From NCBI GenBank assembly GCA_017646885.1, contig JAGCLR010000337.1, positions 1 through 39,076 of the forward strand: a DNA stretch of 39,076 nt, given 5' to 3'. Source of the DNA: Methanobrevibacter sp. GTDB lineage: Archaea; Methanobacteriota; Methanobacteria; Methanobacteriales; Methanobacteriaceae. The notes under the pieces are model-generated. The model ran no database searches, was not told where the DNA came from, and saw only the letters and a program-made list of their open reading frames with translations. This document shows positions 1,037 to 37,000 of the stretch, one piece after another. The translations under genes were made by a program, and so were the position numbers. How positions within the stretch are numbered: the stretch's first letter is position 1; the number at the start of each line of letters is the position of its first letter.

Positions 1037-1573
1037 ATGAAACCAGTAACTTCTGCTCTTCATAATTGGATGTCTGCTCTCTTTGTTCATCCGTTATTTC
1101 GTGGTGCTTCTTTCTTTCACATTCCTGATGGTGTAGGTAGTACCCATTACAATGTATACAGTATTGGAATGACTTCGGTTCCTGACCATCGTAATAACCA
1201 ACTGAAAAATCTTCTGCGTATTATATTTTACAATACTAATTCAAACCACATTGAAGTACGACTTGAAATTGAACAACCAGATGCGGTTTTTCAAACTGGA
1301 GAAGATAATGTAGATTATTATACGAATTTGAAGCTCAAGGACATCATTGAGTTTGTGAAAATGTATAAGACGAATTTTGAATCCAAGTGGGCTAGTGACA
1401 GAAATCCGTTTGCCATCTATTTCGCCCAATTCCAGGAAAATGAAAAAGAATTTATTAAACGAAACCAGGCTGCGTATGACGATTATAGAAATATAGTTAG
1501 GACCTGCTTTGATTTTTTGAACAAACGAGAAAAGTTGAATAAACGCTTGAAAGAAAAGGACAGTGATTTCTAA
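1037..1573 (+). CDS. Unknown Asp-Phe-tagged protein, 178 aa
   Basis: Preceded by AAGGAG nine bases before the ATG. The N-terminal third is rich in aromatic and His residues, the middle is beta-like, and the last 45 residues form a long charged helix (NIVRTCFDFLNKREKLNKRL) ending KEKDSDF. The terminal Asp-Phe is shared with 39 other + strand ORFs here; the hydrophobic position four residues before Phe is Lys in this copy. The final codons contain AAGGA, and the stop overlaps the next start as TAATG. Confidence 0.8.
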   Translation: MKPVTSALHNWMSALFVHPLFRGASFFHIPDGVGSTHYNVYSIGMTSVPDHRNNQLKNLLRIIFYNTNSNHIEVRLEIEQPDAVFQTGEDNVDYYTNLKLKDIIEFVKMYKTNFESKWASDRNPFAIYFAQFQENEKEFIKRNQAAYDDYRNIVRTCFDFLNKREKLNKRLKEKDSDF

Positions 1574-1983
1574 TGAGTAAGAAAACAATTACTGAAGACG
1601 AATTCAAATTTGTTATGACAAAACATAAGGATTTGATTCTGTTTTTTACAACTGCTGAAGAACTGAAATATACAAACAACGAATGCGGAACTTATCCTGA
1701 TGTACCTGGTGTGCTTTCCATAAACATCTGGGACGAAGATTTGTATGGCGATACTTGGGTTGAACTCAAAGATGGTGTTGCGACAGTTCTCGTTTACGAT
1801 GGTCATTATAACGATTACAGACCTGAACATATTTTTAGAGATTGGAAGGAACTAGACAGATGGATGGCTGATGGATTTATCAAGGACCATTTGTGGGATA
1901 TGTCTTTCGCAAGCAAGGCCCTGAAGAAACAGTATCTCGGTGACGAAGATTTTAACTATGACCCGTGGAGTAAAGGAAAATAA
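1573..1983 (+). CDS. Unknown protein, 136 aa
   Basis: Start overlaps the previous stop. The N-terminus (KTITEDEFKFVMTKHKDLIL) resembles the helical opening of many array proteins in this window, but the C-terminus (NYDPWSKGK) lacks the Asp-Phe tag. The middle is rich in Trp, Asp and Tyr. It is the last gene of its operon: a terminator-like hairpin at 2011-2040 follows. No family recognised. Confidence 0.8.
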   Translation: MSKKTITEDEFKFVMTKHKDLILFFTTAEELKYTNNECGTYPDVPGVLSINIWDEDLYGDTWVELKDGVATVLVYDGHYNDYRPEHIFRDWKELDRWMADGFIKDHLWDMSFASKALKKQYLGDEDFNYDPWSKGK

Positions 1984-2010
1984 AAGTTTACAAAACATTT
2001 GGTAGATTAT

Positions 2011-2040
2011 AAGATGTAAATTTATATTTACATCTTTTTT
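2011..2040 (+). terminator. Intrinsic terminator built on the TGTAAA/TTTACA dyad
   Basis: A 10-bp stem AAGATGTAAA / TTTACATCTT with loop TTTATA is followed by a T-run. It ends the upstream operon 28 bases after the stop at 1983. The inner part of the stem, 2015-2032, is the same TGTAAA-N6-TTTACA dyad found upstream of six other promoters, so this one element may act both as RNA terminator and as DNA operator. Confidence 0.75.
2015..2032. promoter_or_regulatory. Dyad operator TGTAAA-N6-TTTACA
   Basis: Perfect inverted repeat with a 6-bp spacer, ending 19 bp before the -35 box at 2052. The same element recurs with the same spacer length and offset at 6673, 23657, 27554, 31335, 36999 and 38432. 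The geometry matches CRP/FNR-family sites (the CRP consensus is TGTGA-N6-TCACA). Confidence 0.7.
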
Positions 2041-2051
2041 CGTTTTTTCTA

Positions 2052-2080
2052 TTGACAAACTGCATAAAATAATCTATATT
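2052..2080 (+). promoter_or_regulatory. Sigma70 promoter P1
   Basis: TTGACA at 2052-2057 and TATATT at 2075-2080 with a 17-bp spacer, the ideal arrangement. Transcription should begin near 2087. The leader then carries AGAGGT before the ATG at 2113. It drives the unit containing the HD-domain alarmone hydrolase. Confidence 0.85.
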
Positions 2081-2112
2081 ATTAGTGTAGACAAAACAAG
2101 AGGTAACAAATT

Positions 2113-2310
2113 ATGCCAAAGACTGCTGATGAAATGCTCGTTGAACTCCGCAAAACCCACACTGAACTTGAAAACGAACTGCGTGATGCTTATGTTGAAT
2201 TCCAAAATCACGGCGCAGCTGAAGCAGAATTTCTTGTAAAGAAGCTCCGTAAGTTGGCAGATAAAATGGAACAGTTTAACAATGGTTACAAAGAATACTT
2301 GGAGGCATAA
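2113..2310 (+). CDS. Small coiled-coil protein, 65 aa
   Basis: First gene after promoter P1, with AGAGGTAAC before the ATG. Almost entirely helical and charged, with heptad-like Leu/Ile spacing (MLVELRKTHTELENELRDA, then FLVKKLRKLADKMEQF), so probably a coiled coil or helical hairpin that oligomerises or binds a partner. No family recognised. Followed two bases later by an amber-interrupted gene. Confidence 0.8.
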   Translation: MPKTADEMLVELRKTHTELENELRDAYVEFQNHGAAEAEFLVKKLRKLADKMEQFNNGYKEYLEA

Positions 2311-2312
2311 TA

Positions 2313-3765: not shown

Positions 3766-4200
3766 ATGGATTGGAAAACATACGATTTTGACGAATGCGA
3801 AGAAAAAGTTAAGAGGGCAATTAGTCCTTATTTCAAGGCATTTGAAGAACTCGGTATTTCCGTAGATTTTGTTCCTGATTGCGACAACCCAGCAGATGAT
3901 TTCTGTGAACTGTATTACGGAGATTGTTTAGTTGGTTACATAACTCCCGAAGTTGATACTCACGAAGAATATGACTCTGATGACCCAAACGATTTTGAAA
4001 CTCATACTGTATGGGAATTTGATTACATAGACGTTCGCCTTACAGTTATGATTAACTTGGACAGAAATTACAAATTTTTCTATCCGAAAGAAAATGAAAA
4101 CGATTTGTCTGATGCAGTTCAAGCGGCAAAAAATTTCATTATTTTAATCAAGAACGAACAAATTAAAAAACGAGAAGCAAAACTCAACGAGGATTTTTAA
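3766..4200 (+). CDS. Unknown acidic Asp-Phe-tagged protein, 144 aa
   Basis: The ribosome site is weak (AGGATA just before the ATG). Very acidic: residues 44-90 hold clusters such as THEEYDSDDPNDFE. N-terminal helix, beta-rich centre and C-terminal charged helix, ending EAKLNEDF. This helix/sheet/helix layout and the terminal Asp-Phe match the other array proteins. The stop is followed immediately by the next ATG, with GAGGA in the last codons acting as its ribosome site. Confidence 0.8.
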   Translation: MDWKTYDFDECEEKVKRAISPYFKAFEELGISVDFVPDCDNPADDFCELYYGDCLVGYITPEVDTHEEYDSDDPNDFETHTVWEFDYIDVRLTVMINLDRNYKFFYPKENENDLSDAVQAAKNFIILIKNEQIKKREAKLNEDF

Positions 4201-4953
4201 ATGATTAAAAAAGCAAATTCAGTACAAGAATTTCAAATCATTGTTATGGAAGATTTAAAGTCTCATAACATTCTCACACAAAAGGCAAAGTTAGACTCTG
4301 TATGTTTTTGGTATGGTGATGCTCAATGTTCTAATTCCGGTAATACAGAAATAATAGATTACAAAGCTTCTATTTCTTTTATGGTTTTTGAAGGCGAAAC
4401 CACTATTAACAAAATAAAAGGAATTGCGAAATACAGACCACTCCACACACAGTTCAAAGCAATTAAAGCACTTTGGTGTGATGATAATACGATTGTTTAT
4501 GGTTATGATTCTTGGTATCATACTTACGAGGAACACAACCCAAATCCTTACAATGGTTTTCCAAAGGTATGGGGCTGGAGTGAAGACGATGTTAAAACAA
4601 TGCCTGATGTGTGGGCTGATTCGCATCCAACAAGTAAGCTTGCTCATTATAAACCTTGGCCTTGTTGTTATTATGGACCGAACTATTCAGTTACTGGAGA
4701 CCAGTGGGCTAAAGTTGAATTACACGGTTCAAAGTTCTATAAGGACATTGACGATTTGAATAAAATCTATCAGTTTGAAAGGGATGAAATTATTAGACTT
4801 ATTCCTGTTGCGGAAAAGATGAATAATCAGTATACTCAATTTCTTACAACAGTAGATTGGCATAAAAAGAGTGATAGAAAAATAATTCGTCAATACAAGC
4901 TCAAACTTAACAAACAGAATGTAAATCTTAACAAAGTAAAAATTGACTTCTAA
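4201..4953 (+). CDS. Unknown Asp-Phe-tagged protein, 250 aa
   Basis: The largest member of the tagged set. N-terminal helix (SVQEFQIIVMEDL), a long Trp/Tyr-rich middle (WYGD, YDSWYHTYEEHNPNPYNGFP, KPWPCCYYGPNY) and a basic C-terminal helix ending LNKVKIDF. The next gene's AAAGGAG lies after this stop, so here the Asp-Phe codons are not needed as a ribosome site. No enzyme motif is recognised. Confidence 0.8.
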   Translation: MIKKANSVQEFQIIVMEDLKSHNILTQKAKLDSVCFWYGDAQCSNSGNTEIIDYKASISFMVFEGETTINKIKGIAKYRPLHTQFKAIKALWCDDNTIVYGYDSWYHTYEEHNPNPYNGFPKVWGWSEDDVKTMPDVWADSHPTSKLAHYKPWPCCYYGPNYSVTGDQWAKVELHGSKFYKDIDDLNKIYQFERDEIIRLIPVAEKMNNQYTQFLTTVDWHKKSDRKIIRQYKLKLNKQNVNLNKVKIDF

Positions 4954-5236: not shown

Positions 5237-5488
5237 ATGGCAGCAACTTATGTTCACCACATTACAATTAAATCAAACGATGTCAGAGAACCAAAGTACA
5301 AGACGATTGTCATTGAGTCAACTGACACTAATGCGGAAATGTACGAAAAGATGAAGGCTCTTACTGCTTTTGAACGTGCTGTATCTACGGGCTATCATTT
5401 GAGCATTGAAACCACAGTAAAAACAAACAAACGAACACCTGAACAGATTTACCAGGAATACATTGAGGCCTGGGGTAAGGGTTTCTAA
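5237..5488 (+). CDS. Unknown small protein, 83 aa, ending Gly-Phe
   Basis: AAAGGAG precedes the ATG. Two beta-like segments (YVHHITIKSND, YKTIVIESTDT) are followed by a helix (AEMYEKMKALTAFERAV) and a second helix near the C-terminus. It ends WGKGF, so the terminal Phe is kept but Asp is replaced by Gly, perhaps a degenerate version of the tag. Stop and next start overlap as TAATG. Confidence 0.75.
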   Translation: MAATYVHHITIKSNDVREPKYKTIVIESTDTNAEMYEKMKALTAFERAVSTGYHLSIETTVKTNKRTPEQIYQEYIEAWGKGF

Positions 5489-5883
5489 TGCTAACTGAAG
5501 AAGATGTAAAAGATGTTGTCAGTCGTTATCCAAATTTGGAACTGTCAATTCTAAATTCCACACTTTTTAAAAGCCATACAAAAAGATTGTTAGTTTATAT
5601 AAATTCCAAAGCATTCCACTATGGAAGTAATCTGTTGCTTGAATATGATTACAATGGAATGCCTACAGATGGAATTTTACAAGTAAACAATGGTAACCAG
5701 CACATTTATAGTGATTGGGGCTATATTACAGAAGATTCAATTTATCTGGTTGAAAATAAAAAAATGAAAAAGAAGGTCCGAAACAAAGAACAATTTGAGA
5801 AACTAATTACAGATTCTTTAAAAATGGTTAAAGAAGCAGAAGTAGAACTGCACATCCGTAAGATTAGTAAGGATTTTGTATGA
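5488..5883 (+). CDS. Unknown Asp-Phe-tagged protein, 131 aa
   Basis: Coupled to the previous gene through TAATG with AAGGG in its last codons. N-terminal helix LTEEDVKDVVSRYPNLEL, beta-rich centre, and C-terminal helix ending LHIRKISKDFV. The Val after Phe comes from the ATGA overlap with the next gene. Fits the shared helix/sheet/helix plan; function unknown. Confidence 0.8.
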   Translation: MLTEEDVKDVVSRYPNLELSILNSTLFKSHTKRLLVYINSKAFHYGSNLLLEYDYNGMPTDGILQVNNGNQHIYSDWGYITEDSIYLVENKKMKKKVRNKEQFEKLITDSLKMVKEAEVELHIRKISKDFV

Positions 5884-6206
5884 CATTTACAGAATATAAA
5901 CAATTATGCCAAAAATATAATTTGCAGTCATTGAGTTACGATGGCCGCGATTATGGTGTATGTAATGTTCCGTTTGTTGCTTGGGGAACGAACATTAGAG
6001 TTATTCCTGAAAGAGTTTGGAAAAATGAATTTCTGTCTGATAATGGAAAATACATTACATACAAAGGAGAATTTCAATACTATCCTGACGAAATAAAGAA
6101 AAATGACACACAGGCATTTGAGAATTATTTAATCAAATTAACTGCGTGGTTAAAACAACTTAGGCTTGACACTAAATTACAACTTATTCAAAAAGATTTC
6201 AAATAA
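5880..6206 (+). CDS. Unknown Asp-Phe-tagged protein, 108 aa, operon end
   Basis: Opens with TFTEYKQLCQKYNLQSL, the typical start of the array family, then a beta-rich middle and a C-terminal helix ending KLQLIQKDFK. It is the last gene before a bidirectional terminator, so the tag cannot be a ribosome site for a following gene. Overlaps the previous gene by ATGA. Confidence 0.8.
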   Translation: MTFTEYKQLCQKYNLQSLSYDGRDYGVCNVPFVAWGTNIRVIPERVWKNEFLSDNGKYITYKGEFQYYPDEIKKNDTQAFENYLIKLTAWLKQLRLDTKLQLIQKDFK

Positions 6207-6766: not shown

Positions 6767-7018
6767 ATGGCAAGTGTAAAAATTCAGGTCCCAATGTTTA
6801 AGGGAATTAACATTTCGGGTGTAGAAGTTGTGGGTCAACTTATCGTGGTTGGTGATACTGCTTGTATCGTGCCGCTGAATGACCCGAACGATTGGAATAA
6901 AGATTATTTGACTTTTGATGGTCATCATCTGAGACAGGGTGAATACGATTCTGCGTTGTGGATTCGGGACCCGTCCACCATTCAACCCGCTGGTCATGTA
7001 GAAGTGGAGGTATGCTAA
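6767..7018 (+). CDS. Unknown small beta-rich protein, 83 aa
   Basis: First gene after P2, preceded by GAGAGGTAAC. Sequence is mainly beta-like (VKIQVPMF, GVEVVGQLIVVGDTACIV) with a Trp/His/Asp-rich second half, ending HVEVEVC. Lacks the tag. Its last codons hold TGGAGG, the ribosome site for the following gene (TAATG overlap). Function unknown. Confidence 0.8.
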   Translation: MASVKIQVPMFKGINISGVEVVGQLIVVGDTACIVPLNDPNDWNKDYLTFDGHHLRQGEYDSALWIRDPSTIQPAGHVEVEVC

Positions 7019-7494
7019 TGGATTTAATTTCTCCTGAAATTTTTAATTCATTGTGTAAAATCTGTAAGGAACATGGCTGGTATATGCCAGAAGAAAATTT
7101 CCGAAAGGTTTATAAAAACATTGAAGAAAGCAAAACTGGCGGTGTTGATTTTGCGAATAAAATTGTATGTAAATGCGATGTGAATTACAGGTTTTTAAGC
7201 CCGGATGGTTCAGATCAAGTACGAATGACTACTACTTGTGATAACTATTTTACAACTATCCGCCTGACTAAACTTTTTATCGCATTTCCTGTGATTATGC
7301 ACACTATTGACTTTGGTGAATTGTATCATTTTCAAACTGACGATTTTTATTTGGATTTTAAAGACATTAAATCTGAGCATGACATTGAAGATGTGTTACT
7401 ACAGGTAGAAGAACATATCAAAGAAGTAAATGATTGTATCGGCACCAAAGGAAAAATGAACAAGAAACTCAGGAATTTGAAAGGAGATTTCTAA
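7018..7494 (+). CDS. Unknown Asp-Phe-tagged protein, 158 aa
   Basis: The frame is open further upstream (to 6958), but the ATG at 7018 is in the TAATG overlap with GGAGG ahead and is chosen. Opens with SPEIFNSLCKICKEHGW, has a beta-rich centre and ends in a helix (EEHIKEVNDCIG to KLRNLKGDF). It shares IAFPVIMHTI and FYLDFKDIKSEHDIEDVL with the matching part of the gene at 7797 (VIPILYHTI, YYVDLSHINSEEEIADVI), so the two are probably paralogues. Confidence 0.8.
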   Translation: MDLISPEIFNSLCKICKEHGWYMPEENFRKVYKNIEESKTGGVDFANKIVCKCDVNYRFLSPDGSDQVRMTTTCDNYFTTIRLTKLFIAFPVIMHTIDFGELYHFQTDDFYLDFKDIKSEHDIEDVLLQVEEHIKEVNDCIGTKGKMNKKLRNLKGDF

Positions 7495-7796: not shown

Positions 7797-8273
7797 ATGC
7801 GACGTGAAGAAAAAATTGAACTTATCCTAAAACATCTAGGAAATAATGGATGGAAAATAACTACAGACCAGCATGACAAAATTTACACTCGTAAAGGAAC
7901 GATTAGCCCACACCTGAATGGAACTTTTATCATTGGCAGTAAAATTATTTTAAAAGATAAAGATTACATTTACATTGACAATGATGATTCTATTGGCTAT
8001 GACGGAGATAATTGGGAGGCTAAAGTTACTTTGTATGCTAATGGTAGCGGTTATCTTGTTATTCCAATTCTTTACCACACAATAACAGAAAAGAAAAGGA
8101 ATAAAATAAATTTTGCCAGCAGAGATTATTATGTGGATTTATCACACATTAACTCTGAAGAAGAAATTGCTGATGTTATTGCTCAGCTTGAAGAAAAGAT
8201 TAACCAGGTAAAATTCAAGGTCAAAGAATACGAATCAAAAATTAGAGAACAGAAAATGAAGAAGGACTTTTAA
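7797..8273 (+). CDS. Unknown Asp-Phe-tagged protein, 158 aa
   Basis: Basic N-terminal helix (REEKIELILKHLGNNGW), a long beta-rich region, then an approximately 45-residue charged helix ending EQKMKKDF. Likely paralogue of the gene at 7018 (shared HTI and D-[FL]-x-x-I-x-S-E patterns before the last helix). AAGGA in the tag codons is the ribosome site for the next gene (TAATG). Confidence 0.8.
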   Translation: MRREEKIELILKHLGNNGWKITTDQHDKIYTRKGTISPHLNGTFIIGSKIILKDKDYIYIDNDDSIGYDGDNWEAKVTLYANGSGYLVIPILYHTITEKKRNKINFASRDYYVDLSHINSEEEIADVIAQLEEKINQVKFKVKEYESKIREQKMKKDF

Positions 8274-8506
8274 TGACAAGTTATTATGTTGATGCTGGTA
8301 AATTTTCACCAATGGCTATTCCAGTTCCTGATTTAGAAACTGGCTATGCTCTTTGTGCGGAAATTTACAATAGCGGTATGAAGAATGTTAGACTTATTAA
8401 AATGGGTGACACATACGAGGACCGAGAAGAGATAGATTTAAAAGAATTTCTTAACAAATTAGATAATCAGGGAAATAGATTGGAAAAAATCAAAGAGGAT
8501 TTCTAA
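8273..8506 (+). CDS. Unknown small Asp-Phe-tagged protein, 77 aa
   Basis: One of the shortest tagged proteins. Beta-like N-terminus (SYYVDAGKFSP), helix (LETGYALCAEIYNSGMK), strand (NVRLIKMGD), and C-terminal helix ending RLEKIKEDF, a near-ideal copy of the tag. The tag codons read AAAGAGGATTTC and double as the ribosome site for the TAATG-coupled next gene. Confidence 0.8.
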   Translation: MTSYYVDAGKFSPMAIPVPDLETGYALCAEIYNSGMKNVRLIKMGDTYEDREEIDLKEFLNKLDNQGNRLEKIKEDF

Positions 8507-8937
8507 TGAGAGAATGGATGTCTAAAGAAAAATACAAATTGTATCAGCAGAAGATTAGTGAACTCTGTTTGCAGATGGGTTTAGTAGAAAAACGAACAGA
8601 AGATTGCATTGAGTATCGTACTGAATTAGAAACCAATTTTGTATTTGGCGAAGTAATTAGAATGTTTGATTATGACGAACACTATTACAACGCAGTTGTA
8701 TTTTTCAATAAGTTGGTGCCTTCAACTCCAATGTATAGTTCCGATGATTACAAATACATTTTTGAAAATGTACACGAAGAACTTCCGTTTGAAACTGATG
8801 ACAATGTAATTTCATTTAATGAGCCACTTGAAAAGGTTTTAGACAAAGTAAAATACATTGTTAGTAATGCTATTAAGCAGCGTAAAGAATTGAATGCTAC
8901 AGTAAAGTTGGAAGGAATTAAGGAAGACTTCAAATGA
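8506..8937 (+). CDS. Unknown Asp-Phe-tagged protein, 143 aa
   Basis: N-terminal helix (KEKYKLYQQKISELCLQMGL) followed by beta strands and a long C-terminal helix ending KLEGIKEDFK. The last Lys comes from the ATGA overlap with the next gene (AAATGA). Acidic centre. Function unknown. Confidence 0.8.
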   Translation: MREWMSKEKYKLYQQKISELCLQMGLVEKRTEDCIEYRTELETNFVFGEVIRMFDYDEHYYNAVVFFNKLVPSTPMYSSDDYKYIFENVHEELPFETDDNVISFNEPLEKVLDKVKYIVSNAIKQRKELNATVKLEGIKEDFK

Positions 8938-9254
8938 TTACTAAAAATGTATTTCACGAAATTTGTCGGAGAAATGGACTCGTTCAATGCGGCCCAATGA
9001 ATGAATACAAGTTACCTGCGTGGAAAAATAAATTTGGTGGAAGCATTGTTGCGACCTGGTTTAAATCGGAACGTGTTACAGTTTATGTACTTAACCAGCA
9101 TGAACGAAATGGAATAAAGCAGTGGGCACAAGACCCTTATTACCAAATTGAAGACCCTGAAGAATGTGAAGCACGAATAAAAGATACAGTGGAAACTGCA
9201 AAGAAGCTCTATCAGGAATTTAAATTAAAATCTATCAGTAGGGATTTTGACTAA
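8934..9254 (+). CDS. Unknown Asp-Phe-tagged protein, 106 aa
   Basis: Opens TKNVFHEICRRNGLVQCG, the family-type helix; strands around SIVATWFKSERVTVYVL; helical acidic C-terminus ending KLKSISRDFD. Overlaps the previous gene by ATGA and the next by TAATG. AGGGA in the tag codons is the probable ribosome site. Confidence 0.8.
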   Translation: MITKNVFHEICRRNGLVQCGPMNEYKLPAWKNKFGGSIVATWFKSERVTVYVLNQHERNGIKQWAQDPYYQIEDPEECEARIKDTVETAKKLYQEFKLKSISRDFD

Positions 9255-10104: not shown

Positions 10105-10346
10105 TGTTTAAGATTATTGTTTACGCAGATGGAATGGAATGTACCAGATTTGAAGGTAATGATTTGTATGACCTTGTTCTTGAATTGAACATTTACAAAG
10201 AAAAGCACTGCGCATTTACACACGCATTTATGTTGTTACAAAATGATAAACAACCTACTGATGCTGTGTGGAGAGAATACCACGATTTGTTGTACAAACT
10301 AATTCCAGTTGCTAGAAAGATGGTTGCTATGGGAGAAGATTTTTAA
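10104..10346 (+). CDS. Unknown small Asp-Phe-tagged protein, 80 aa
   Basis: Strand FKIIVYADGMECTRF followed by helices; ends RKMVAMGEDF, keeping hydrophobic residues at both expected tag positions (Met, Met). GGGAG in the tag region precedes the TAATG-coupled next start. Function unknown. Confidence 0.78.
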   Translation: MFKIIVYADGMECTRFEGNDLYDLVLELNIYKEKHCAFTHAFMLLQNDKQPTDAVWREYHDLLYKLIPVARKMVAMGEDF

Positions 10347-27619: not shown

Positions 27620-27647
27620 ATAGTATAGAGAAAAAGAGAGGTAACAA

Positions 27648-28707: not shown

Positions 28708-29072
28708 TGTTGAGCCTTGACGAATTTGTTGCGTTGTGTAAGCAGTATTGTCCTGAATGGGAACATTATGAAGATTGGGATGATGGTGAATACTGGATCA
28801 GTTTCAATCGTCTCAGCGATTATGCTATTTGTATGTACCAGTATGAACAAAATAAAATCTTTATGCCACAAGCAATAATTTACGAAAATGGCGAATGTGT
28901 TGCTGCTACTGAAGATGGTATTCAACCAACAACTTGGGAAGAACATATTATAATAAATGCTGAAGACACAGACGCAAAGGACAGAGTTATTAAGTGTCTA
29001 ATCAAACTACATCAGGACTACAAACAAATTCAACAGGACCTTAAACTAACGAAAATTAAAGAGGATTTCTAA
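28707..29072 (+). CDS. Unknown Asp-Phe-tagged protein, 121 aa
   Basis: Opens LSLDEFVALCKQYCPEWEHYEDWDD, acidic and Trp-rich; strands EYWISFNRLSDYAICMYQY; C-terminal helix ends KLTKIKEDF. Tag codons GAGGATTTC provide the ribosome site for the TAATG-coupled next gene. Confidence 0.8.
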   Translation: MLSLDEFVALCKQYCPEWEHYEDWDDGEYWISFNRLSDYAICMYQYEQNKIFMPQAIIYENGECVAATEDGIQPTTWEEHIIINAEDTDAKDRVIKCLIKLHQDYKQIQQDLKLTKIKEDF

Positions 29073-29353
29073 TGGAAGAACTGATGAAGTCATTTGGTTT
29101 ATTTGCTGACGAAGATGGTTATTGGTTTGTCACAAAAGAAGATCATGTGAGAGGCAATTTTCTTGTGATTACATATCCTGACCGAATTATTGCCCACAAA
29201 ACAATAAAAGTAATTCAAAACAAAATCTATTATAGTGATTTGTATGAAATTATTGGATATGAAGCAGCAAAAGCAACTGTCGCTCGTTTGTTGCGAGAAA
29301 CAAAAGAAAAGTTAACTGAAATGCGTTTGGAAAAGATACAGAGGGATTTCTAA
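29072..29353 (+). CDS. Unknown small Asp-Phe-tagged protein, 93 aa
   Basis: Short N-terminal helix (EELMKSFGLFADEDGYWF), strands (FLVITYPDRIIAHKTIKVI), and helices ending RLEKIQRDF. A compact example of the shared helix/sheet/helix plan. TAATG-coupled both sides. Confidence 0.8.
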   Translation: MEELMKSFGLFADEDGYWFVTKEDHVRGNFLVITYPDRIIAHKTIKVIQNKIYYSDLYEIIGYEAAKATVARLLRETKEKLTEMRLEKIQRDF

Positions 29354-29682
29354 TGAGTCACAGAATTACTTGGGAAGAATATAAAGAACTGATGGCGAAA
29401 TACAATTTGGAGCCGAATTCTTACAATGCTGCATTTATGCCAAATGGTGAACCAAAGCAACATTCAATTCCGTTTTTCCAAAAGTATGGAAAGCACCAAG
29501 GACATCGCTGTGCCGTTTTTAGTGAGTATTTCGGTGTGAAAATTCGTAGAGATATGGAATACTGGTATACTTGGTTAATAACAAAAGAAGAGGTGGAAGT
29601 CGCACTAAATGAAATGTTTAAATTTTTGAAGGACGAACAAATTAAAGAAAGAATGAATAGTGTAAGGAGTGATTTCGTATGA
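29353..29682 (+). CDS. Unknown Asp-Phe-tagged protein, 109 aa
   Basis: Opens TWEEYKELMAKYNLEPNSYNA; His/Lys-rich middle (FFQKYGKHQGHRCAVFSEYFG); C-terminal helix ends RMNSVRSDFV. AAGGAG in the last codons is the ribosome site; the final Val comes from the ATGA overlap with the next gene. Confidence 0.8.
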   Translation: MSHRITWEEYKELMAKYNLEPNSYNAAFMPNGEPKQHSIPFFQKYGKHQGHRCAVFSEYFGVKIRRDMEYWYTWLITKEEVEVALNEMFKFLKDEQIKERMNSVRSDFV

Positions 29683-30164
29683 TAGACAGTATTAGATATG
29701 TTGGGTTATTTATTGGCCTGATAACATTCTTTTCAATTTGCCGTAGATTTTATCTTGATTGGCGAACTGATAAGTGGCGAGAACTAACTGGCTTCAGTTG
29801 GGATGAAACTTATGAAACACTTGAAAATGTTTTGCTTGCTTTTGAAAATACAGAATTTTCAAGTCACATTACTAATGGTGATGTTGAGTGCGGACATTTC
29901 TTTATTGAAGTAGACCACATTAAATTTAAGATTTCCCTCGGCAAACATCCTATCAAGAGCTGGAAAGATTACAGAAAGTATAAGAAAGAAAGTAATACGT
30001 TCTACTATCTTAAAACCGTGGGAACTTTAAACTCTAAATCAAAAATTATTGCCCGCTATGAAACATTGGAAGATTTTATTTCGGAATTTCCGACAATATC
30101 TTCTCTCTATGTAAAACAGGGTAAGACAGAAAACAGAATAGACAAACTAATGGAGGACTTCTAA
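29679..30164 (+). CDS. Asp-Phe-tagged membrane protein, 161 aa
   Basis: Residues about 6-22 (RYVGLFIGLITFFSICR) are a membrane helix near the N-terminus, followed by RRFYLDWRTDKWREL and a beta-rich soluble domain; ends RIDKLMEDF. The tag is on the side opposite the N-terminal anchor, presumably cytoplasmic. TAATG-coupled to the next gene. Confidence 0.78.
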   Translation: MIDSIRYVGLFIGLITFFSICRRFYLDWRTDKWRELTGFSWDETYETLENVLLAFENTEFSSHITNGDVECGHFFIEVDHIKFKISLGKHPIKSWKDYRKYKKESNTFYYLKTVGTLNSKSKIIARYETLEDFISEFPTISSLYVKQGKTENRIDKLMEDF

Positions 30165-30535
30165 TGACTAAAAATGAAATTCTAAATCACATTCACAACC
30201 ACCCGAAGATGCATCATTTGCTGGCTAGCATTTACCAGCACGAAGATTATACTTGGGCAAAAGAAAGTGGACTAAATGCGTCTGCGTGTTTGTACATTGA
30301 CAATAGCGAACACAACGGCGACCTGGTTGTAACAACCGGTGCAGGAGACAGAAGTCCTGAAAGTGATTTCTTGAAAACTCACAATAAGTATTACCATCCA
30401 AACGAACTTACTCCTGAAAAGATTGACCAGATCATTGCTGAAGACATTCCTGAGTTGTACAAATTAACAATGAAGGATGTTACAGATTATCTTGAAGGCA
30501 ACAAGATAAAATCTTTGAATGAGGATTTTGAATGA
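30164..30535 (+). CDS. Unknown Asp-Phe-tagged protein, 123 aa
   Basis: His-rich N-terminus (LNHIHNHPKMHHLLASIYQH), strands ASACLYIDNSE and GDLVVTTGAGD, helical C-terminus with KIDQIIAEDIPELYKL and tag KIKSLNEDFE. The His cluster might bind metal, but no known motif matches. ATGA overlap with the next gene. Confidence 0.8.
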   Translation: MTKNEILNHIHNHPKMHHLLASIYQHEDYTWAKESGLNASACLYIDNSEHNGDLVVTTGAGDRSPESDFLKTHNKYYHPNELTPEKIDQIIAEDIPELYKLTMKDVTDYLEGNKIKSLNEDFE

Positions 30536-31014
30536 TTGAAGCATTTGTATTTGGAATGGGGTTTATGTTATTCGTATTATTTGTTGTGGCAATTTTTGTT
30601 GTAATTTTTGCTGCCGCAGTATGGTTTTCAGACATTGCAAAGGAAAAACCAAAATTTGAACCATACATAACTGAAGACGAACAGAATTTATTTGTGTCCC
30701 GATTTAAATCTTTTTCTTTTGACGAAATGCCACAGTTTATGTATGGACTTAGAAATATACCACCTAGAAGCATTCAAATGCAGTTTTCGCATCAGTCCAG
30801 GTGTTATATAGAAGTAACAAAAGACCTAAACAAAAAATGTTTTAAGTATGAAGTCAAATACAAGAAAACTGTGATTAAGACATTTTACGATTGGAGTGAT
30901 GTAGGTGATTACTGTTGGAATTTAAACATCAGTTATAGAGATAACCCTGAATTGGTTATAAAGAAATTGAAAACAGAAAAACGAGAAGCTTTAGCAGCAG
31001 GAGATTTTGAATGA
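30532..31014 (+). CDS. Asp-Phe-tagged membrane protein, 160 aa
   Basis: Strong N-terminal membrane helix (residues about 4-29, FVFGMGFMLFVLFVVAIFVVIF), then a cytosolic alpha/beta domain with a Tyr/Lys-rich segment and an end EALAAGDFE in which the upstream Leu of the tag is replaced by Glu. GGAG in the tag is the ribosome site for the ATGA-coupled next gene. Confidence 0.78.
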   Translation: MIEAFVFGMGFMLFVLFVVAIFVVIFAAAVWFSDIAKEKPKFEPYITEDEQNLFVSRFKSFSFDEMPQFMYGLRNIPPRSIQMQFSHQSRCYIEVTKDLNKKCFKYEVKYKKTVIKTFYDWSDVGDYCWNLNISYRDNPELVIKKLKTEKREALAAGDFE

Positions 31015-31328
31015 GGAAATTTAAAAATTTAGATGGTAGTGTATTCCAGGACGAAATTGGTACACTAACTTCAAATGCGTTTGAAGTATTAAATCATACA
31101 CTTAGTAAAGAATATGGCAGGCTCAAATTATTCAGTGAAGCCGTTAATTTGGTCAGTAAAAATTTTGAAATCATAGAAGATAACAGAAGAAAGAGTCATT
31201 ACAGTTATAAGCGTGAATGGGTAATTGAGCATTTTAATGAAGTAACAAAAATGTACTATGAACTGCTAGAATGGCGAAAGAAAATAGATTACAAAAATAA
31301 ACTTAAAAATATAAAGAACGATTTTTAG
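31011..31328 (+). CDS. Unknown Asp-Phe-tagged protein, 105 aa, operon end
   Basis: Mainly helical (NAFEVLNHTLSKEYGRLKLF, EVTKMYYELLEWRKKI), basic, ending KLKNIKNDF with a TAG stop. No gene follows: the P5 cassette begins seven bases later, so the tag does not serve translation of a downstream gene. Confidence 0.8.
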   Translation: MRKFKNLDGSVFQDEIGTLTSNAFEVLNHTLSKEYGRLKLFSEAVNLVSKNFEIIEDNRRKSHYSYKREWVIEHFNEVTKMYYELLEWRKKIDYKNKLKNIKNDF

Positions 31329-31334
31329 CAGTTT

Positions 31335-31352
31335 TGTAAACATTATTTTACA
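31335..31352. promoter_or_regulatory. Dyad operator TGTAAA-N6-TTTACA
   Basis: Perfect inverted repeat ending 19 bp before the -35 box at 31372; a further TTTACA follows at 31357. Confidence 0.75.
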
Positions 31353-31364
31353 CAATTTTACAAT

Positions 31365-31393
31365 AAATCCATTGACAGAAATGATGGATTTTT
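31365..31393 (+). terminator. Terminator hairpin embedded in promoter P5
   Basis: 8-bp stem AAATCCAT / ATGGATTT at 31365-31372 and 31384-31391 followed by T residues; the -35 box starts at the loop. AT-rich and weaker than P4's hairpin. Confidence 0.6.
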
Positions 31394-31400
31394 CTATATT
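31372..31400 (+). promoter_or_regulatory. Sigma70 promoter P5
   Basis: TTGACA 31372-31377, TATATT 31395-31400, 17-bp spacer; AGAGGT lies before the ATG at 31430. Drives the first ligase half. Confidence 0.85.
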
Positions 31401-31429
31401 ATACTTGTAAAAGAAAAAGAGGTTAAATT

Positions 31430-33206: not shown

Positions 33207-33503
33207 ATGGGTATTTTTAAACAACTATACAAAACATTTGTAACTGACCCACAGAAAAAGCGGGAACTGTTAGATTGGTTGTGTGAACACGATACTCCTG
33301 AGTATCATAAGAATCCACTCCCGGTCGGCTACGAAACTAACAGACTGTGGTATGAACAAATGGTATCCGTTGAAAGTTTGGAAAAACAGAAGCAACAGAT
33401 GGAAACGTATCATAAATTCTATTACAAGCCGCAGTTGAATACACTGAATGATAAACAAGATTATATGAAACGCAGATTGGAAAAGCTCCAGGAGGATTTC
33501 TAA
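33207..33503 (+). CDS. Unknown helical Asp-Phe-tagged protein, 98 aa
   Basis: Nearly all helical and highly charged: basic N-terminus (KQLYKTFVTDPQKKRELLDW), His/Pro turn, long helix with Gln/Lys (ESLEKQKQQMETYHKF), and tag RLEKLQEDF. CAGGAGGAT in the tag codons is a perfect ribosome site for the TAATG-coupled next gene. Confidence 0.8.
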   Translation: MGIFKQLYKTFVTDPQKKRELLDWLCEHDTPEYHKNPLPVGYETNRLWYEQMVSVESLEKQKQQMETYHKFYYKPQLNTLNDKQDYMKRRLEKLQEDF

Positions 33504-33709
33504 TGTACAAACTAACATTTCCAGGTAGACCTTCAATGACTTTTAATTCATTAGACGATGCCGCAGAATTTATGTGTGGTGTAATTTATGGATTTAAAAG
33601 TTGTATTGACAAAAATGGAGATGACCATTCAGTTACATTATGCCAACTGATTGTAAAGAAACTAGAAAACAACAAAAGAATAGCACAACTTAAAGAGGAC
33701 TTCAAATGA
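33503..33709 (+). CDS. Unknown small Asp-Phe-tagged protein, 68 aa
   Basis: The shortest tagged protein. Opens with a strand (YKLTFPGRPSMTF), a helix (SLDDAAEFMCGVIYGF), and the C-terminal helix with KLENNKRIAQLKEDFK. ATGA overlap with the CoaD-like gene; GAGGA in the tag serves that gene. Confidence 0.78.
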   Translation: MYKLTFPGRPSMTFNSLDDAAEFMCGVIYGFKSCIDKNGDDHSVTLCQLIVKKLENNKRIAQLKEDFK

Positions 33710-34227
33710 AAGCAATTTACGCCGGTTCATTCAACCCACTTCACGCTGGACACATTGACATTCTTAAAAGAGCCATTAAGCTCTTTGGTGATGTTACTTT
33801 GGTATTAGCAGTTAACCCTGGAAAGACTTATATTTCGGCAGAAAGGCGAAAGGAAACTTATGAATGGCTTTTCAAAGAAATCGGAATGAATGTAAAGATT
33901 GAAATTCTCTCTGCATATAAGTTTCTCGCAGATTATTGCTCTGAAAATGGTGTAACTCACATTGTAAAAGGTCTCAGGAACGGAACTGACCTTGATAGTG
34001 AAATGGCACAGGAATGGTACACGAAGGGACTTAACCCAAATGTAGAAACTGTGTATTTCACCACAGATAACACACATCGTTTTCTTTCTTCAACCAGTAT
34101 CAAGGCTTTCGCCAAAATGGATAAAGCAGGTTTCATTAACTATATGATGAAAGTAAATAAAATTGAAGGAGCAAAGGACACAGTTGTAAAAACATATCTT
34201 GATTGGGTATGGAGGAATGTTCAATGA
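33706..34227 (+). CDS. coaD: Phosphopantetheine adenylyltransferase-like protein (CoaD family)
   Basis: 173 aa, near the 160 aa of bacterial CoaD. GSFNPLHAGHIDILKRA holds the T/HxGH nucleotidyltransferase motif (His13, His16); VNPGKTY, RRKETYEWL, HIVKGLRNGTD with Lys88 (usually Arg) and Arg91, and SSTSIK near residue 127 follow the CoaD order. CoaD makes dephospho-CoA from 4'-phosphopantetheine and ATP. A changed substrate, for example NMN, cannot be excluded. It sits inside the tagged array and is itself untagged; TGGAGG at its end serves the next gene. Confidence 0.82.
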   Translation: MKAIYAGSFNPLHAGHIDILKRAIKLFGDVTLVLAVNPGKTYISAERRKETYEWLFKEIGMNVKIEILSAYKFLADYCSENGVTHIVKGLRNGTDLDSEMAQEWYTKGLNPNVETVYFTTDNTHRFLSSTSIKAFAKMDKAGFINYMMKVNKIEGAKDTVVKTYLDWVWRNVQ

Positions 34228-34739
34228 ATGAATTAAATGATTTTGTAAAAAATCTAAGAGCGGATTTTGATAAATGCCGTAAGAATATGGAAAGTATGGA
34301 AAAGGGACTTCAGTTCGTGGAATCATATTTTACGGACAAGAATTTTCCTGGATGGACGTGGAGAATTTACACACGTGGAACTTACCAAAACAAACCATCT
34401 TTTGAAATTGATGGCAATTCAAGTATGCACATTTCAGAGTATGCGACAATTAGTTTGAAATATAATTGTTGTAATAAAACTGCCCCTGTATTTGTCATTC
34501 AAACCTTGAAACCAAAAATGAATGCTTGGAATTTGGAATGGTCAGATAAGCAATTATACAGAAATGAAATGGACCCTATTTTAAAAACATTTGAAGGAAT
34601 GAAGTTCAAAAATCCTGACCCGATCATTCCGCAAATTGCGAACATTCTTATTGACATTAAAAAATTGGAAGATGTCCACAAGGGAATACTTCAATTTAAA
34701 TCACTACTCAAACAAATTCAACTTAAAAAGGACTTCTAA
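34224..34739 (+). CDS. Unknown Asp-Phe-tagged protein, 171 aa
   Basis: ATG at 34224 (ATGA overlap with coaD, GGAGGA upstream) is preferred to a TTG at 34203. N-terminal charged helix (ELNDFVKNLRADFDKCRKNM), beta-rich centre with Trp, and C-terminal helices ending QIQLKKDF. Function unknown. Confidence 0.8.
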   Translation: MNELNDFVKNLRADFDKCRKNMESMEKGLQFVESYFTDKNFPGWTWRIYTRGTYQNKPSFEIDGNSSMHISEYATISLKYNCCNKTAPVFVIQTLKPKMNAWNLEWSDKQLYRNEMDPILKTFEGMKFKNPDPIIPQIANILIDIKKLEDVHKGILQFKSLLKQIQLKKDF

Positions 34740-35230
34740 TGGCACACGAAAAAATCTTTAAAACTGTGGAAGAAGCCCAGGAGTTTATACAACCCTGGAT
34801 TGACAAGGTTTCAGCCGATTTGGGCTGTGGTGTTGAACCATACAGTTACAATGACGGCTATTACATGTCTGGTGGACAGAATGTTGGCGACTGGTTTTAT
34901 GGAGCGAATCTAAAGTATCTCGGCTATAATTTGGGAACTGTAATGATGCAGTACAAGTATGGTTATGATAGGGACACTAAAGAATCGTGGAAATATGACC
35001 CGTATGTTCAGTTATCATTACAAACAAAGGTAACTTTTGAAATGAAGTCCATATTCACTAAAACAAATATGCGACACGATGTAAACATTAAACTGAATGT
35101 TAGCCGACAGATGTCTACATCAGATAAAGATTACAAGAAATTCATTGACTGGGCAAAGCTCATTATGAAACAACTAAAGACTGCGGAAGCAAAAAAACGA
35201 AAATTCCAGGCCGATGTTGACTTTGAATAA
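34739..35230 (+). CDS. Unknown Asp-Phe-tagged protein, 163 aa
   Basis: N-terminal helix (TVEEAQEFIQPWIDKV), Tyr/Gly-rich centre, strands, and a last helix KDYKKFIDWAKLIMKQLKT ending FQADVDFE. The last helix resembles that of the next gene (KDFKTVLEWAKYVVQKVKD ... MQADF), so they are probably paralogues. The next gene's TAAGGAG follows the stop, so Asp-Phe is not the ribosome site here. Confidence 0.8.
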   Translation: MAHEKIFKTVEEAQEFIQPWIDKVSADLGCGVEPYSYNDGYYMSGGQNVGDWFYGANLKYLGYNLGTVMMQYKYGYDRDTKESWKYDPYVQLSLQTKVTFEMKSIFTKTNMRHDVNIKLNVSRQMSTSDKDYKKFIDWAKLIMKQLKTAEAKKRKFQADVDFE

Positions 35231-35239
35231 GGAGCAACT

Positions 35240-35725
35240 ATGACTAACAAAGAGAAAAAAGCAAGGTTAGAACAAATTAACGAAAAGTTCCATACTCTTT
35301 TGGAACCGTATGCGGATCAACTTAGGAATACTGGACTTATCGTAGAATGGTTCCCAGACGAAGACTACCCAGATTGTTCTTCATTTTCTTGCTGTCTAAC
35401 CAAAAACGATATGGACGAAGGAAATGAGTTAATCAGTGTTTGTGTAAATGCTCCTGAAATGGATTGGGAACATCCCGAAAAATATGATTTGGATAAATAC
35501 ACACCTATAATTTATTTCAACATTCAAAATAAAATTCGTGAAATCAAAGATACTTCAATTACAAAAACGGGTATCAAGATTAAAACAAAATATGAATTTA
35601 AGGGCAGTAAAGAATACGGAGAAAAGGATTTTAAAACTGTACTTGAATGGGCGAAATATGTTGTACAGAAAGTAAAGGACCTTAAGCAGCAAGAAAAGAT
35701 TAACAAAATGCAGGCGGATTTCTAA
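35240..35725 (+). CDS. Unknown Asp-Phe-tagged protein, 161 aa
   Basis: Long N-terminal helix (KEKKARLEQINEKFHTLLEPY), acidic centre (VEWFPDEDYPDC), strands, and last helix ending KINKMQADF. Paralogue of the gene just upstream at the C-terminus; the acidic FVPD/FPDE turn also recalls the gene at 3766. GCGGATTTC before TAATG is a weak ribosome site. Confidence 0.8.
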   Translation: MTNKEKKARLEQINEKFHTLLEPYADQLRNTGLIVEWFPDEDYPDCSSFSCCLTKNDMDEGNELISVCVNAPEMDWEHPEKYDLDKYTPIIYFNIQNKIREIKDTSITKTGIKIKTKYEFKGSKEYGEKDFKTVLEWAKYVVQKVKDLKQQEKINKMQADF

Positions 35726-36156
35726 TGGCATCTGTTTTCAAAACAAAAGTAGCAATGCTGGACATTATCAAAAAGTTTGCTGATGAACTTAGGCTCATCG
35801 GGTTTGAGGTTAATGAACCTCGTTTAAATAACGATGAAGGTCGGCATTCGTTCTACATAGATAATGAATTTGTTGGTGATGTCTACTTTCATTATCAAAA
35901 AGAAAACAGAGGTATGCGCCGCATTGTTGCCAGGTTTAGTTACTCAGTTAAAATTTATCATAACATCATATACAACGCAGATAGGGTTGAAGAAGAATAT
36001 GCCCTTAAATTGCGTGATAGTGAAGCACGATATGTAACTGAAGATACAGTTGACATTTTGTATGACATTAAGAATATGTTAAAAGATGTTTACAGAAACT
36101 ATAAGAAAGCTCAAAATAAAATAAAAGAATTGAAAATGAACGGTGATTTTTCCTAA
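35725..36156 (+). CDS. Unknown Asp-Phe-tagged protein, 143 aa, array end
   Basis: N-terminal helix (KVAMLDIIKKFADELRLIGFEV), strands (FVGDVYFHYQ, RIVARFSYSVKIY), C-terminal helix ending ELKMNGDFS. The final Ser is unique among the tags. No gene is coupled to it: the next promoter begins seven bases after the stop. Confidence 0.8.
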   Translation: MASVFKTKVAMLDIIKKFADELRLIGFEVNEPRLNNDEGRHSFYIDNEFVGDVYFHYQKENRGMRRIVARFSYSVKIYHNIIYNADRVEEEYALKLRDSEARYVTEDTVDILYDIKNMLKDVYRNYKKAQNKIKELKMNGDFS

Positions 36157-36162
36157 TAGAGG

Positions 36163-36191
36163 TTGACAAATACATAGATTATTACTATATT
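36163..36191 (+). promoter_or_regulatory. Sigma70 promoter P6 (no dyad, near-leaderless)
   Basis: TTGACA 36163-36168, TATATT 36186-36191, 17-bp spacer. Unlike the other seven it has no TGTAAA/TTTACA dyad 19 bp upstream and no embedded hairpin. Transcription would begin near 36198, four bases before the ATG at 36202. Confidence 0.75.
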
Positions 36192-36201
36192 ATAGACCGC
36201 T

Positions 36202-36783
36202 ATGAAAAAAATAATTATATTAACAATTCTATTATTCTCGCTCGGGTTTTCTAGTAAAACTGAGAGCACTTTCGCCGACCTTTATTACATTTCTAAGGGT
36301 TCGGAAATCATCAAATCTGTAAACAAGAACATTACAGAAAAAGAAGCATTTCAGATTAGTACTGTTGCGTATGAAGAATCTGAAAAATACGATATAGATT
36401 TTCATTTTACATTGGGGATAATCACGACTGAAAGTCGCTTCAATGTAAATGCGAAATCTTATTGTGGAGCAGTCGGACTGATGCAACTAATGCCGAGAAC
36501 TGCCAAATATATCGCTGAGAAATACGATATAGATTATAAGAACTTGTATGATATAGAATCAAACATTCAGATTGGTGTTGCGTATCTGTATCATTTGAAA
36601 AACAAGTTTGGCAGTTACGAATTAACGGCAGCTGGTTACAATGGTGGCAGTGGTGGTGCTAAAAAGTATCACGAATATATGATTGGTAAACGCAAAGCGG
36701 ACGAAATCCATAATCAAACTTTAAATTATGTTCCGAAAGTAATGGGCTACGTTTATGACTACCGAAAAATCACAAAAATCTAA
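36202..36783 (+). CDS. Secreted lytic transglycosylase (SLT family)
   Basis: 193 aa. N-terminal signal peptide (MKKIIILTILLFSLGFSS). SLT motifs: catalytic Glu77 in TTESRFN, GAVGLMQLMP at about 89-98, IGVAYLYHL, and AAGYNGG near 143-149. Cleaves peptidoglycan glycan strands, leaving 1,6-anhydroMurNAc, in the periplasm. There is no Shine-Dalgarno sequence and almost no leader, so the message may be translated leaderless or by read-through from the operon upstream. Role in entry, lysis or superinfection is open. Confidence 0.88.
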   Translation: MKKIIILTILLFSLGFSSKTESTFADLYYISKGSEIIKSVNKNITEKEAFQISTVAYEESEKYDIDFHFTLGIITTESRFNVNAKSYCGAVGLMQLMPRTAKYIAEKYDIDYKNLYDIESNIQIGVAYLYHLKNKFGSYELTAAGYNGGSGGAKKYHEYMIGKRKADEIHNQTLNYVPKVMGYVYDYRKITKI

Positions 36784-37000
36784 AAAATATGTTGTTACAA
36801 AAATGGTGAGAAAAGTATCTGATGGTTATTCACCAATGATAGAAAAACAACTGTGCCGTTGCGATACATTAGAAGAATGTGCTGAGTTTATCGTGAACAA
36901 TGACGAATACTGGTATAATTGTAGGTATGGAAAAGAACTGTTAAATTTAAAATTAGCAGATCGTATTATAAAGTTCAAAGCATTGAAATCTGATTTTTAG
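36755..37000 (+). CDS. Unknown small Asp-Phe-tagged protein, 81 aa, operon end
   Basis: Starts inside the transglycosylase gene (29-base overlap); an internal ATG at 36803 is an alternative. Basic N-terminus (TTEKSQKSKKYVVTKMVRKV), Cys/Glu-rich centre (LCRCDTLEECAEFIV), C-terminal helix ending KFKALKSDF. Stop TAG is followed by the P7 cassette, so the tag serves no downstream ribosome site. Confidence 0.72.
   Translation: MTTEKSQKSKKYVVTKMVRKVSDGYSPMIEKQLCRCDTLEECAEFIVNNDEYWYNCRYGKELLNLKLADRIIKFKALKSDF

Follow-up and report, generated by a model that had tools for sequence, protein, structure and literature searches.

A 16-residue C-terminal tag shared by many different small proteins in one group of large T4-like phages

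Results

The stretch of DNA analyzed here (the window) is the 39,076-nucleotide (nt) contig JAGCLR010000337.1 of GenBank assembly GCA_017646885.1, which is filed under Methanobrevibacter sp. It is part of a T4-like phage whose small genes are arranged in tight plus-strand operons, and many of these genes encode proteins with a common tag in the C-terminal region, the subject of this study. A first-pass annotation made from the letters alone had counted 40 plus-strand open reading frames (ORFs) with an Asp-Phe (D-F) end, and our recount gives identical numbers: D-F lies near the C-terminus in 40 of the 114 plus-strand ORFs of at least 40 amino acids (aa), with no residue after it in 24, one in 15 and three in one (Table 1). 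On the minus strand D-F is found near the end of two of 116 ORFs, one of which (10988-11539) ends KTYRDFK with the remainder of the tag missing, while the other (25582-25716) is nested within a plus-strand gene. Among 1104 proteins of at least 60 aa from seven contigs, D-F occupies the last, second-last or third-last possible place in 176, 159 and 31 proteins, against a background of 3-8 proteins at each of nine places further inward.

The nine-residue pattern described in the annotation, and judged there by eye to cover about three quarters of these ORFs, is real and matches 29 of the 40. The tag itself spans 16 residues, as a Lys 14 residues before Asp (position -14, with Asp as 0) had been overlooked; it is present in 36 of the 40 ORFs. 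In a MAFFT alignment of the 40 proteins, D-F forms the only invariant columns and Lys -14 the sole other column at 90% or above. We describe the tag as K-x6-[KR]-[LI]-x2-[ILM]-x2-D-F, probably helical. A profile of 220 cluster representatives has Lys at -14 in 88% (2.55 bits), Lys or Arg at -7 in 78%, Leu at -6 in 54% (77% hydrophobic) and Ile, Met or Leu at -3 (95% hydrophobic), then D0 and F+1; these clusters retain a few non-tag proteins that fall within the counts of D-F with 0-3 trailing residues (the DNA polymerase ending SGLDDFFV, an endolysin-like protein with YRDFK, methyltransferase-like proteins ending FFE and one 631-aa protein). No position upstream of -14 exceeds 0.43 bit in the same representatives, and N-terminal positions 2-24 of tagged proteins reach at most 0.57 bit, with a preference for T, E and F. 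When the tag was scored as a weight matrix over 169,359 non-tag positions, 14 bits or more were reached 18 times, and 12 of these 18 matches are tags or near-tags no more than 12 residues from the C-terminus. The tag is an element of the C-terminal region, and the very end need not be free: between 0 and 12 residues trail D-F across the tagged proteins, in agreement with the earlier claim that a strictly free terminal Phe is not needed.

The D-F codons often lie close to the start of the next gene. Of the 40 window ORFs, 32 have an ATG 7-11 nt past the start of the Asp codon (27 of them at exactly 8 nt), and the type of gene overlap largely explains the extra residues, since TAATG directly after D-F leaves none and an xATGA overlap leaves one. 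Eight ORFs (ends 4953, 6206, 27102, 27550, 31328, 35230, 36156 and 37000) have no such ATG, and D-F is still present. Of 376 tagged genes, 268 are coupled in this way, with an ATG 7-12 nt past the Asp codon start; the distance to the first ATG is 8 nt for 203 of the 376. A strong bias marks the codon before Asp in the coupled genes, with Glu written as GAG in 60% (background 8%) and Lys as AAG in 86% (background 38%). Uncoupled genes write Lys there as AAA in 10 of 11 cases and Glu still as GAG in 4 of 12 (background 8%). The motif does not vanish where the ribosome site of the next gene is elsewhere: it persists in the 108 uncoupled proteins of the 376, whose 66 cluster representatives keep D-F together with K-14 (89%), L-6 (50%) and a hydrophobic residue at -3 (89%). 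Leu -6 of coupled genes uses all six codons at roughly background rates, and pairwise identity at -6/-3 in the window is 0.70/0.86 at the second codon position and 0.30/0.28 at the third. Untagged genes also overlap by TAATG without D-F (starts 18109, 22029 and 22847). Because the tag is kept in uncoupled genes, uses codons freely at -6 and does not accompany the TAATG overlaps of untagged genes, we conclude that it is selected as protein; the residue before Asp is also shaped by the Shine-Dalgarno site of the next gene.

Relatives were found through a search with the 748-aa protein of the window and through pattern scans of IMG/VR for tag DNA. We first recovered contigs G001 (107 kb), G003 (26 kb), G004 (210 kb), G005 (133 kb), G006 and G007, and later added G008-G011 and G013-G015. 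From the IMG sample numbers we take these contigs to come from rumen samples, a RUG label being the sole hint in the data; to our knowledge, no isolate of this phage group exists. Tags were counted where at least two of K-14, hydrophobic -3 and hydrophobic -6 accompany D-F followed by 0-12 residues. With genes called by a simple script on 20-kb pieces, so that genes cut at piece ends are lost, tagged genes among all genes number 39/81 in the window, 55/201 in G001, 10/39 in G003, 129/427 in G004 (three of the 129 with more than three residues past D-F), 69/291 in G005, 34/94 in G006, 33/100 in G007, 35/164 in G008, 33/179 in G009, 9/22 in G010, 3/16 in G011, 15/68 in G013, 16/150 in G014 and 4/48 in G015. 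Three tagged families have members on a 409-kb contig, and the genomes of the group are therefore very large.

The affiliation with T4-like phages is based on a DNA polymerase of phrog_262 and a UvsX-like protein, the nearest named polymerases being at 27-31% identity. A polymerase series from IMG/VR was compared in loci that extend over no more than about 24 kb around this gene. The six with 64-100% polymerase identity are tagged (14, 9, 13, 5, 1 and 5 tags), and the tag is missing from 13 loci at 44-54% identity, the nearest untagged relatives found (including L167 of the 415.7-kb contig G012), and from 28 loci at about 26-36%. G012 as a whole has weak matches in 6 of 729 genes, one of them with Lys -14, and no further C-terminal signal is common to its 496 proteins of 60-260 aa (maximum 0.11 bit). 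Elsewhere, most matches to the tag-DNA pattern look like single chance matches; in one scan, L079 was the only locus outside the group with a protein scoring 5 or 6 on a six-point tag rule. Among the phages examined, the tag is limited to one group.

Within this group, presence of the tag follows the gene family. All members are tagged in 109 of 306 multi-member clusters and untagged in 189, and several of the eight mixed clusters reflect frame changes or tags with longer trailing residues past D-F. The same genes in related phages keep the motif: the main group (the window, G001, G003 and G004, with the orthologues in the window, G001 and G004 being non-independent) forms 127 reciprocal best pairs with G005/G010; both partners are tagged in 18 of these and untagged in 105, and only 4 are discordant. 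The four are an ORF that is cut short 25 nt away from the end of its contig, a protein with five residues past D-F, a weak match, and a pair in which D-F ends both partners and one misses the strict rule. Body identity is 22-47% in 16 of the 18 tagged pairs and 55% and 84% in the others. The 16 pairs with G006/G007 (tagged on both sides in 3, on neither in 12, discordant in 1) and the 27 with G008/G009 (2 on both sides, 25 on neither) are little informative. D-F is also preserved among database relatives of three window families, in 62 of 63, 32 of 36 and 118 of 120 cases (the last being the best 120 of 184); where it is missing, the sequence is short or frame-changed or, in one case, Asp is replaced by Tyr. 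The two families aligned (23 of 36 and 29 of 63 relatives, short ones omitted) are invariant at -14, -7, -6, -3, D and F, with average conservation of 0.89 and 0.85 in the bodies.

Single tagged genes appear to come and go. The tagged gene at 24216-24593 is absent from G001 61139-62100, between the same two neighbors, which suggests gain or loss of individual tagged genes with clean edges. Inside a tagged operon, 10346-10669 and 10666-10995 encode neighboring look-alike proteins that by eye have a tag-like end helix without D-F; these ends are possible decayed tags. One weak relative was found in the sister phages at 44-54% polymerase identity for 482 tagged bodies, against 264 of 865 untagged small proteins. 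The tagged proteins thus may have arisen or arrived as a class, or may diverge beyond recognition.

One position of the tag differs between lineages. A basic residue at -7 is found in 121 of 129 tags in G004, 34 of 35 in G008, 33 of 33 in G009, 15 of 15 in G013 and 13 of 16 in G014, and in 21 of 69 in G005. For the fair comparison, G004 alone against G005 alone, the difference is strong (Fisher 4e-21), and Lys plus Arg content of the bodies is alike (0.130 and 0.127); G005 retains K-14 and D-F. On the G005/G010 side, the basic -7 is missing from 10 of the 18 orthologues paired above. G013, which has the most distant polymerase of the tagged set (64%), keeps it and varies elsewhere, with Lys at -6 in 6 of 15 tags and at least three trailing residues in 7 of 15. 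A joint shift across many unrelated G005 proteins is what a single shared, changing receptor predicts, and from it we infer, rather than demonstrate, that one receptor may read all tags.

The bodies to which the tag is attached differ widely. When the window's 40 tagged proteins, the set scanned, were searched against Pfam and PHROGs, none reached 1e-4 (best 0.0097 and 0.00028); at that threshold, 39 Pfam and 94 PHROG families were recognized among 129 untagged proteins of G004. Once stripped of the tag, 115 tagged cluster profiles remain spread over 111 groups. The composition of 203 tagged representatives points to a common layout of helix, strands and helix, and the mean net charge of tagged proteins is -1.6. 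An AlphaFold2 model of the protein at 35725-36156 (mean predicted local distance difference test score, pLDDT, of 88) has helix 8-25, strands between 28 and 104 and helix 111-138, so that the tag (127-142) is at the end of a long C-terminal helix that reaches residue 138 of 143; confidence toward the tag end is 96-97, 85 and 49 per block. A second model (26393-26767) is of low confidence (mean pLDDT 44) and has the same order of elements. Fold matches for both models were weak and none was convincing.

Promoter patterns suggest when the tagged genes are expressed. None of the 19 intergenic TATAAATA sites in the window, G001 and G004, which we take to be T4-type late promoter elements, precedes a tagged gene. 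Three gaps after tagged operons in the window and many gaps in G004 contain TTGACA and TATATT. A simple promoter rule applied to nine contigs places 597 genes behind the sigma70-type pattern, 219 of them tagged, and 246 behind TATAAATA, 13 of them tagged; 219 of the 232 tagged genes assigned by the rule are thus behind sigma70-type promoters. These patterns support expression of tagged genes from sigma70-type promoters, would fit early host-takeover proteins and speak mildly against virion proteins. A TGTAAA-N6-TTTACA-like palindrome directly upstream of TTGACA/TATATT (27551-27611, 31329-31400, 37001-37060 and many G004 gaps) is a candidate operator controlling these operons.

Table 1. Coordinates of the tagged ORFs, promoter-like gaps and TATAAATA element in the window.
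Feature	Last residues or elements	Position	Strand	Remark
Tagged ORF	KDSDF	1037..1573	+	next ATG 8 nt past Asp codon start
Tagged ORF	LNEDF	3766..4200	+	
Tagged ORF	KVKIDF	4201..4953	+	uncoupled; own Shine-Dalgarno site downstream
Tagged ORF	ISKDFV	5488..5883	+	
Tagged ORF	IQKDFK	5880..6206	+	ATG-free within 50 nt of Asp codon
Tagged ORF	LKGDF	7018..7494	+	ORF opens 6958; ATG 7018 overlaps preceding gene's stop
Tagged ORF	MKKDF	7797..8273	+	
Tagged ORF	IKEDF	8273..8506	+	
Tagged ORF	IKEDFK	8506..8937	+	
Tagged ORF	ISRDFD	8934..9254	+	
Tagged ORF	MKKDFE	9254..9745	+	
Tagged ORF	LDGDFE	9742..10104	+	
Tagged ORF	MGEDF	10104..10346	+	
Tagged ORF	LNEDFK	11595..11987	+	
TATAAATA element		15848..15855	+	15 nt before untagged 748-aa protein (15863)
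Tagged ORF	MREDF	23746..24216	+	
Tagged ORF	MREDF	24216..24593	+	
Tagged ORF	IKEDF	24593..25084	+	
Tagged ORF	MKEDF	25084..25383	+	
Tagged ORF	ISKDF	25383..25733	+	
Tagged ORF	MKGDFDDI	25733..25999	+	3 extra residues
Tagged ORF	LKKDF	25989..26393	+	ORF opens 25986
Tagged ORF	IKKDFK	26393..26767	+	AlphaFold2 model of low confidence
Tagged ORF	IQNDF	26764..27102	+	no ATG 7-12 nt past Asp codon start
Tagged ORF	MDEDF	27092..27550	+	uncoupled; then promoter-bearing gap
Promoter-like gap	TTGTAAACATTATTTTACA, TTGACA, TATATT	27551..27647	+	
Tagged ORF	VEWDF	27989..28366	+	
Tagged ORF	MKEDFD	28366..28707	+	ORF opens 28354
Tagged ORF	IKEDF	28707..29072	+	
Tagged ORF	IQRDF	29072..29353	+	
Tagged ORF	VRSDFV	29353..29682	+	
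Tagged ORF	LMEDF	29679..30164	+	N-terminal segment hydrophobic (by eye)
Tagged ORF	LNEDFE	30164..30535	+	
Tagged ORF	AAGDFE	30532..31014	+	transmembrane segment suggested by hydropathy
Tagged ORF	IKNDF	31011..31328	+	uncoupled; then promoter-bearing gap
Promoter-like gap	TTTGTAAACATTATTTTACA, TTGACA, TATATT	31329..31429	+	
Tagged ORF	LQEDF	33207..33503	+	
Tagged ORF	LKEDFK	33503..33709	+	
Tagged ORF	LKKDF	34224..34739	+	ORF opens 34203
Tagged ORF	DVDFE	34739..35230	+	uncoupled
Tagged ORF	MQADF	35240..35725	+	distant paralogue of 34739-35230
Tagged ORF	MNGDFS	35725..36156	+	uncoupled; AlphaFold2 model helix-strands-helix, C-terminal helix 111-138
Tagged ORF	LKSDF	36755..37000	+	uncoupled; then promoter-bearing gap
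Promoter-like gap	GTAAACAAAATTTTACA, TTGACA, TATATT	37001..37096	+	

Several other genes were noticed in these genomes. A NAD-dependent DNA ligase is seemingly split into two halves (window 31430-32548 and G004 L060:867-1706, the N-terminal half by eye and from the first-pass annotation). G004 also encodes a phage GroEL (L058:18457-19959), untagged HSP20-like, Thg1-like tRNA-His guanylyltransferase and ThyX-like proteins, and a 367-aa protein (L054:12077-13180) at about 34% identity to an untagged sister phage protein, whose HLMEH motif presumably marks an M16-type peptidase.

Discussion

On balance, we consider it probable that the tag is a C-terminal docking helix that takes clade-specific small early proteins of large T4-like phages to one hub, which agrees with the proposal of the first-pass annotation that a peptide acting at the protein level docks or sorts many different proteins. 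All copies would be read by one common partner, phage-encoded or host. The variable body, probably helix, beta-strands and helix, would run on into a helix at the C-terminus, and the final 16 residues of this helix would present a fixed face (K-14, K/R-7, L-6, I-3, D0, F+1) to a groove of the hub. The bodies would bind or modify differing host or defence targets, and the tail would carry the protein, plus whatever it holds, to the hub. The single hub, the role in host takeover and the helix contact itself are the parts that we infer.

Several points weigh against this interpretation. No partner for the tag was found, one of the two models is confident (88 against 44), and fold matches are weak. 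The tagged proteins are all from a single group, and no case was seen of a tag added to an older untagged protein, although fast divergence could hide relatives of the tagged bodies in sister phages. The shared layout and the N-terminal T/E/F bias may mean one very diverged family in which the tag is part of the fold. G005 differs from G004 also at -4 (K/R 30% against 50%) and in Met at -3 (4/69 against 31/129), so the shift extends beyond -7 and fold-wide drift is possible. Finally, the promoter rule is crude: it leaves 844 genes unassigned, including 211 of 443 tagged ones, and the nine contigs share orthologues.

A more specific form of the docking helix is an adaptor library, which we put forward tentatively. 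At least about 100 differing small heads per genome would each seize another host or defence protein, with the constant tail on a single hub. Such a hub might conceivably be a protease, a nuclease or a compartment, one machine aimed at many targets, in the manner of F-box/PRANC adaptors.

The strongest rival, although an unlikely one, is capsid targeting, in which the helix would bind the prohead core and many small proteins would be packaged and ejected into the next host, as a C-terminal counterpart of the N-terminal capsid targeting sequence (CTS) of T4. The tagged phages are T4-like in their phrog_262 polymerase and UvsX-like protein, and two sources count in favor: excerpts of one describe a short peptide on several divergent internal proteins of T4, maybe the route by which T4-like phages load various proteins (PMC9026906), and excerpts of the other describe giant phage heads with room for more than 40 MDa of ejection proteins (PMC7411985). 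On the other hand, the tag is C-terminal rather than N-terminal, and the gp21-type site [LI]-x-E is not enriched beside it (residues -32 to -15; 71 of 218 against 69.4 +/- 6.6 when shuffled). The net charge given above is not basic, and tagged genes are rare behind TATAAATA.

Less credible, and in our view improbable, is that the tag is a fold signature, the self-packing and most conserved C-terminal helix of one extremely diverged superfamily with no shared partner. The helix-strands-helix composition of the 203 representatives, an order of elements that both models share (one of them at low confidence), the N-terminal T/E/F bias and the near absence of the tagged set from sister phages are consistent with this explanation. 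However, fixed residues ending the helices of 111 sequence-unrelated groups are hard to explain by self-packing, and G005 differs at -7 jointly in many different proteins. Model confidence also drops toward the tag end, which is weak evidence as chain ends often do so.

A degradation or turnover signal, through which a host or phage protease would clear early proteins at a set time, seems very unlikely to us. The C-terminal place, the sigma70-type promoters and one signal on a whole class of proteins would suit it, but up to 12 residues trail D-F, where known C-terminal degrons usually need a free end, and no protease is linked to the tag. Least of all, and with a negligible chance, could D-F be merely what GAGGATTTCTAATG, where the next gene starts, encodes when translated: the Shine-Dalgarno codon bias and the frequent ATG at 8 nt speak for such an artefact, but the uncoupled tagged genes retain K-14, L-6, I-3 and D-F, untagged genes overlap by TAATG without D-F and G012 has almost no matches, and it is refuted as a full explanation, holding only for the residue just before Asp.

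The small genes of large phages are usually studied singly. Here, one sequence rule sorts a large share of such genes of unknown function (129 of 427 on one 210-kb contig) into one class, and the class predicts one common partner. Once found, this partner would be the first functional handle on all tagged proteins and would separate constant-tail, variable-head adaptors from a C-terminal virion-loading signal; the lineage difference at -7 offers a built-in test of specificity.

As judged from sequence and the literature searched, none of the known systems with which we compared the tag appears to match it as a whole, and none like it is described there. In the C-terminal tip of SSB, an acidic residue and Phe near the end dock many partners. 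The first-pass annotation had raised, and doubted, mimicry of this tail, which we consider unlikely: a free terminal Phe is not needed (16 of the 40 window ORFs have trailing residues, and up to 12 occur elsewhere), the Lys-rich tag with K-14, K/R-7 and often K-4 forms a predicted helix end rather than an acidic unstructured tail, and there are many carriers, not one.

Sliding-clamp binding motifs are likewise short C-terminal docking peptides on several phage proteins, namely late transcription factors and the DNA polymerase of T4-type phages. In G004 and G005, the DNA polymerase has the end SGLDDFFV (KIEIESSGLDDFFV), a tail that we assume binds the sliding clamp, and unlike the tag it lacks the basic -7 and hydrophobic -6. 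A second C-terminal peptide of this kind (SGLDDFFV, SGLNDFFE, LTEFFE or DEFFE) is found on the polymerase and several methyltransferase-like proteins (G004 L055:15731-18490, the polymerase, L055:15049-15747 and L055:12934-13671, with G005 relatives); we presume that it is perhaps a sliding-clamp binding motif, unusual on methyltransferases.

Encapsulin cargo-loading peptides are also short and C-terminal and sort cargo to one shell, with a sequence that differs from the tag. No encapsulin is among the 25 families listed of the 39 Pfam families from the 129 untagged proteins of G004, a fragmentary genome. Poxvirus adaptors of the F-box/PRANC type combine a constant C-terminal docking element with many variable bodies in one virus. 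The tagged proteins resemble them in the constant C-terminal element on variable bodies (111 groups from 115 tag-cut profiles); the host here is bacterial, and no F-box or PRANC domain was matched in Pfam among the 40 window proteins (E up to 0.01).

The CTS of T4 proteins IPI-III and Alt, as excerpts of two papers present it, resembles the tag in being one short peptide common to sequence-divergent small proteins of a T4-like phage (PMC9026906; PMC7411985). The CTS is N-terminal, about 10-20 residues long, cleaved by gp21 and carried by a handful of proteins, whereas the tag lies 0-12 residues from the C-terminus, spans 16 residues and is present in 129 copies on one 210-kb contig. If capsid loading proved true, the tag would be a variant of this known kind of loading peptide.

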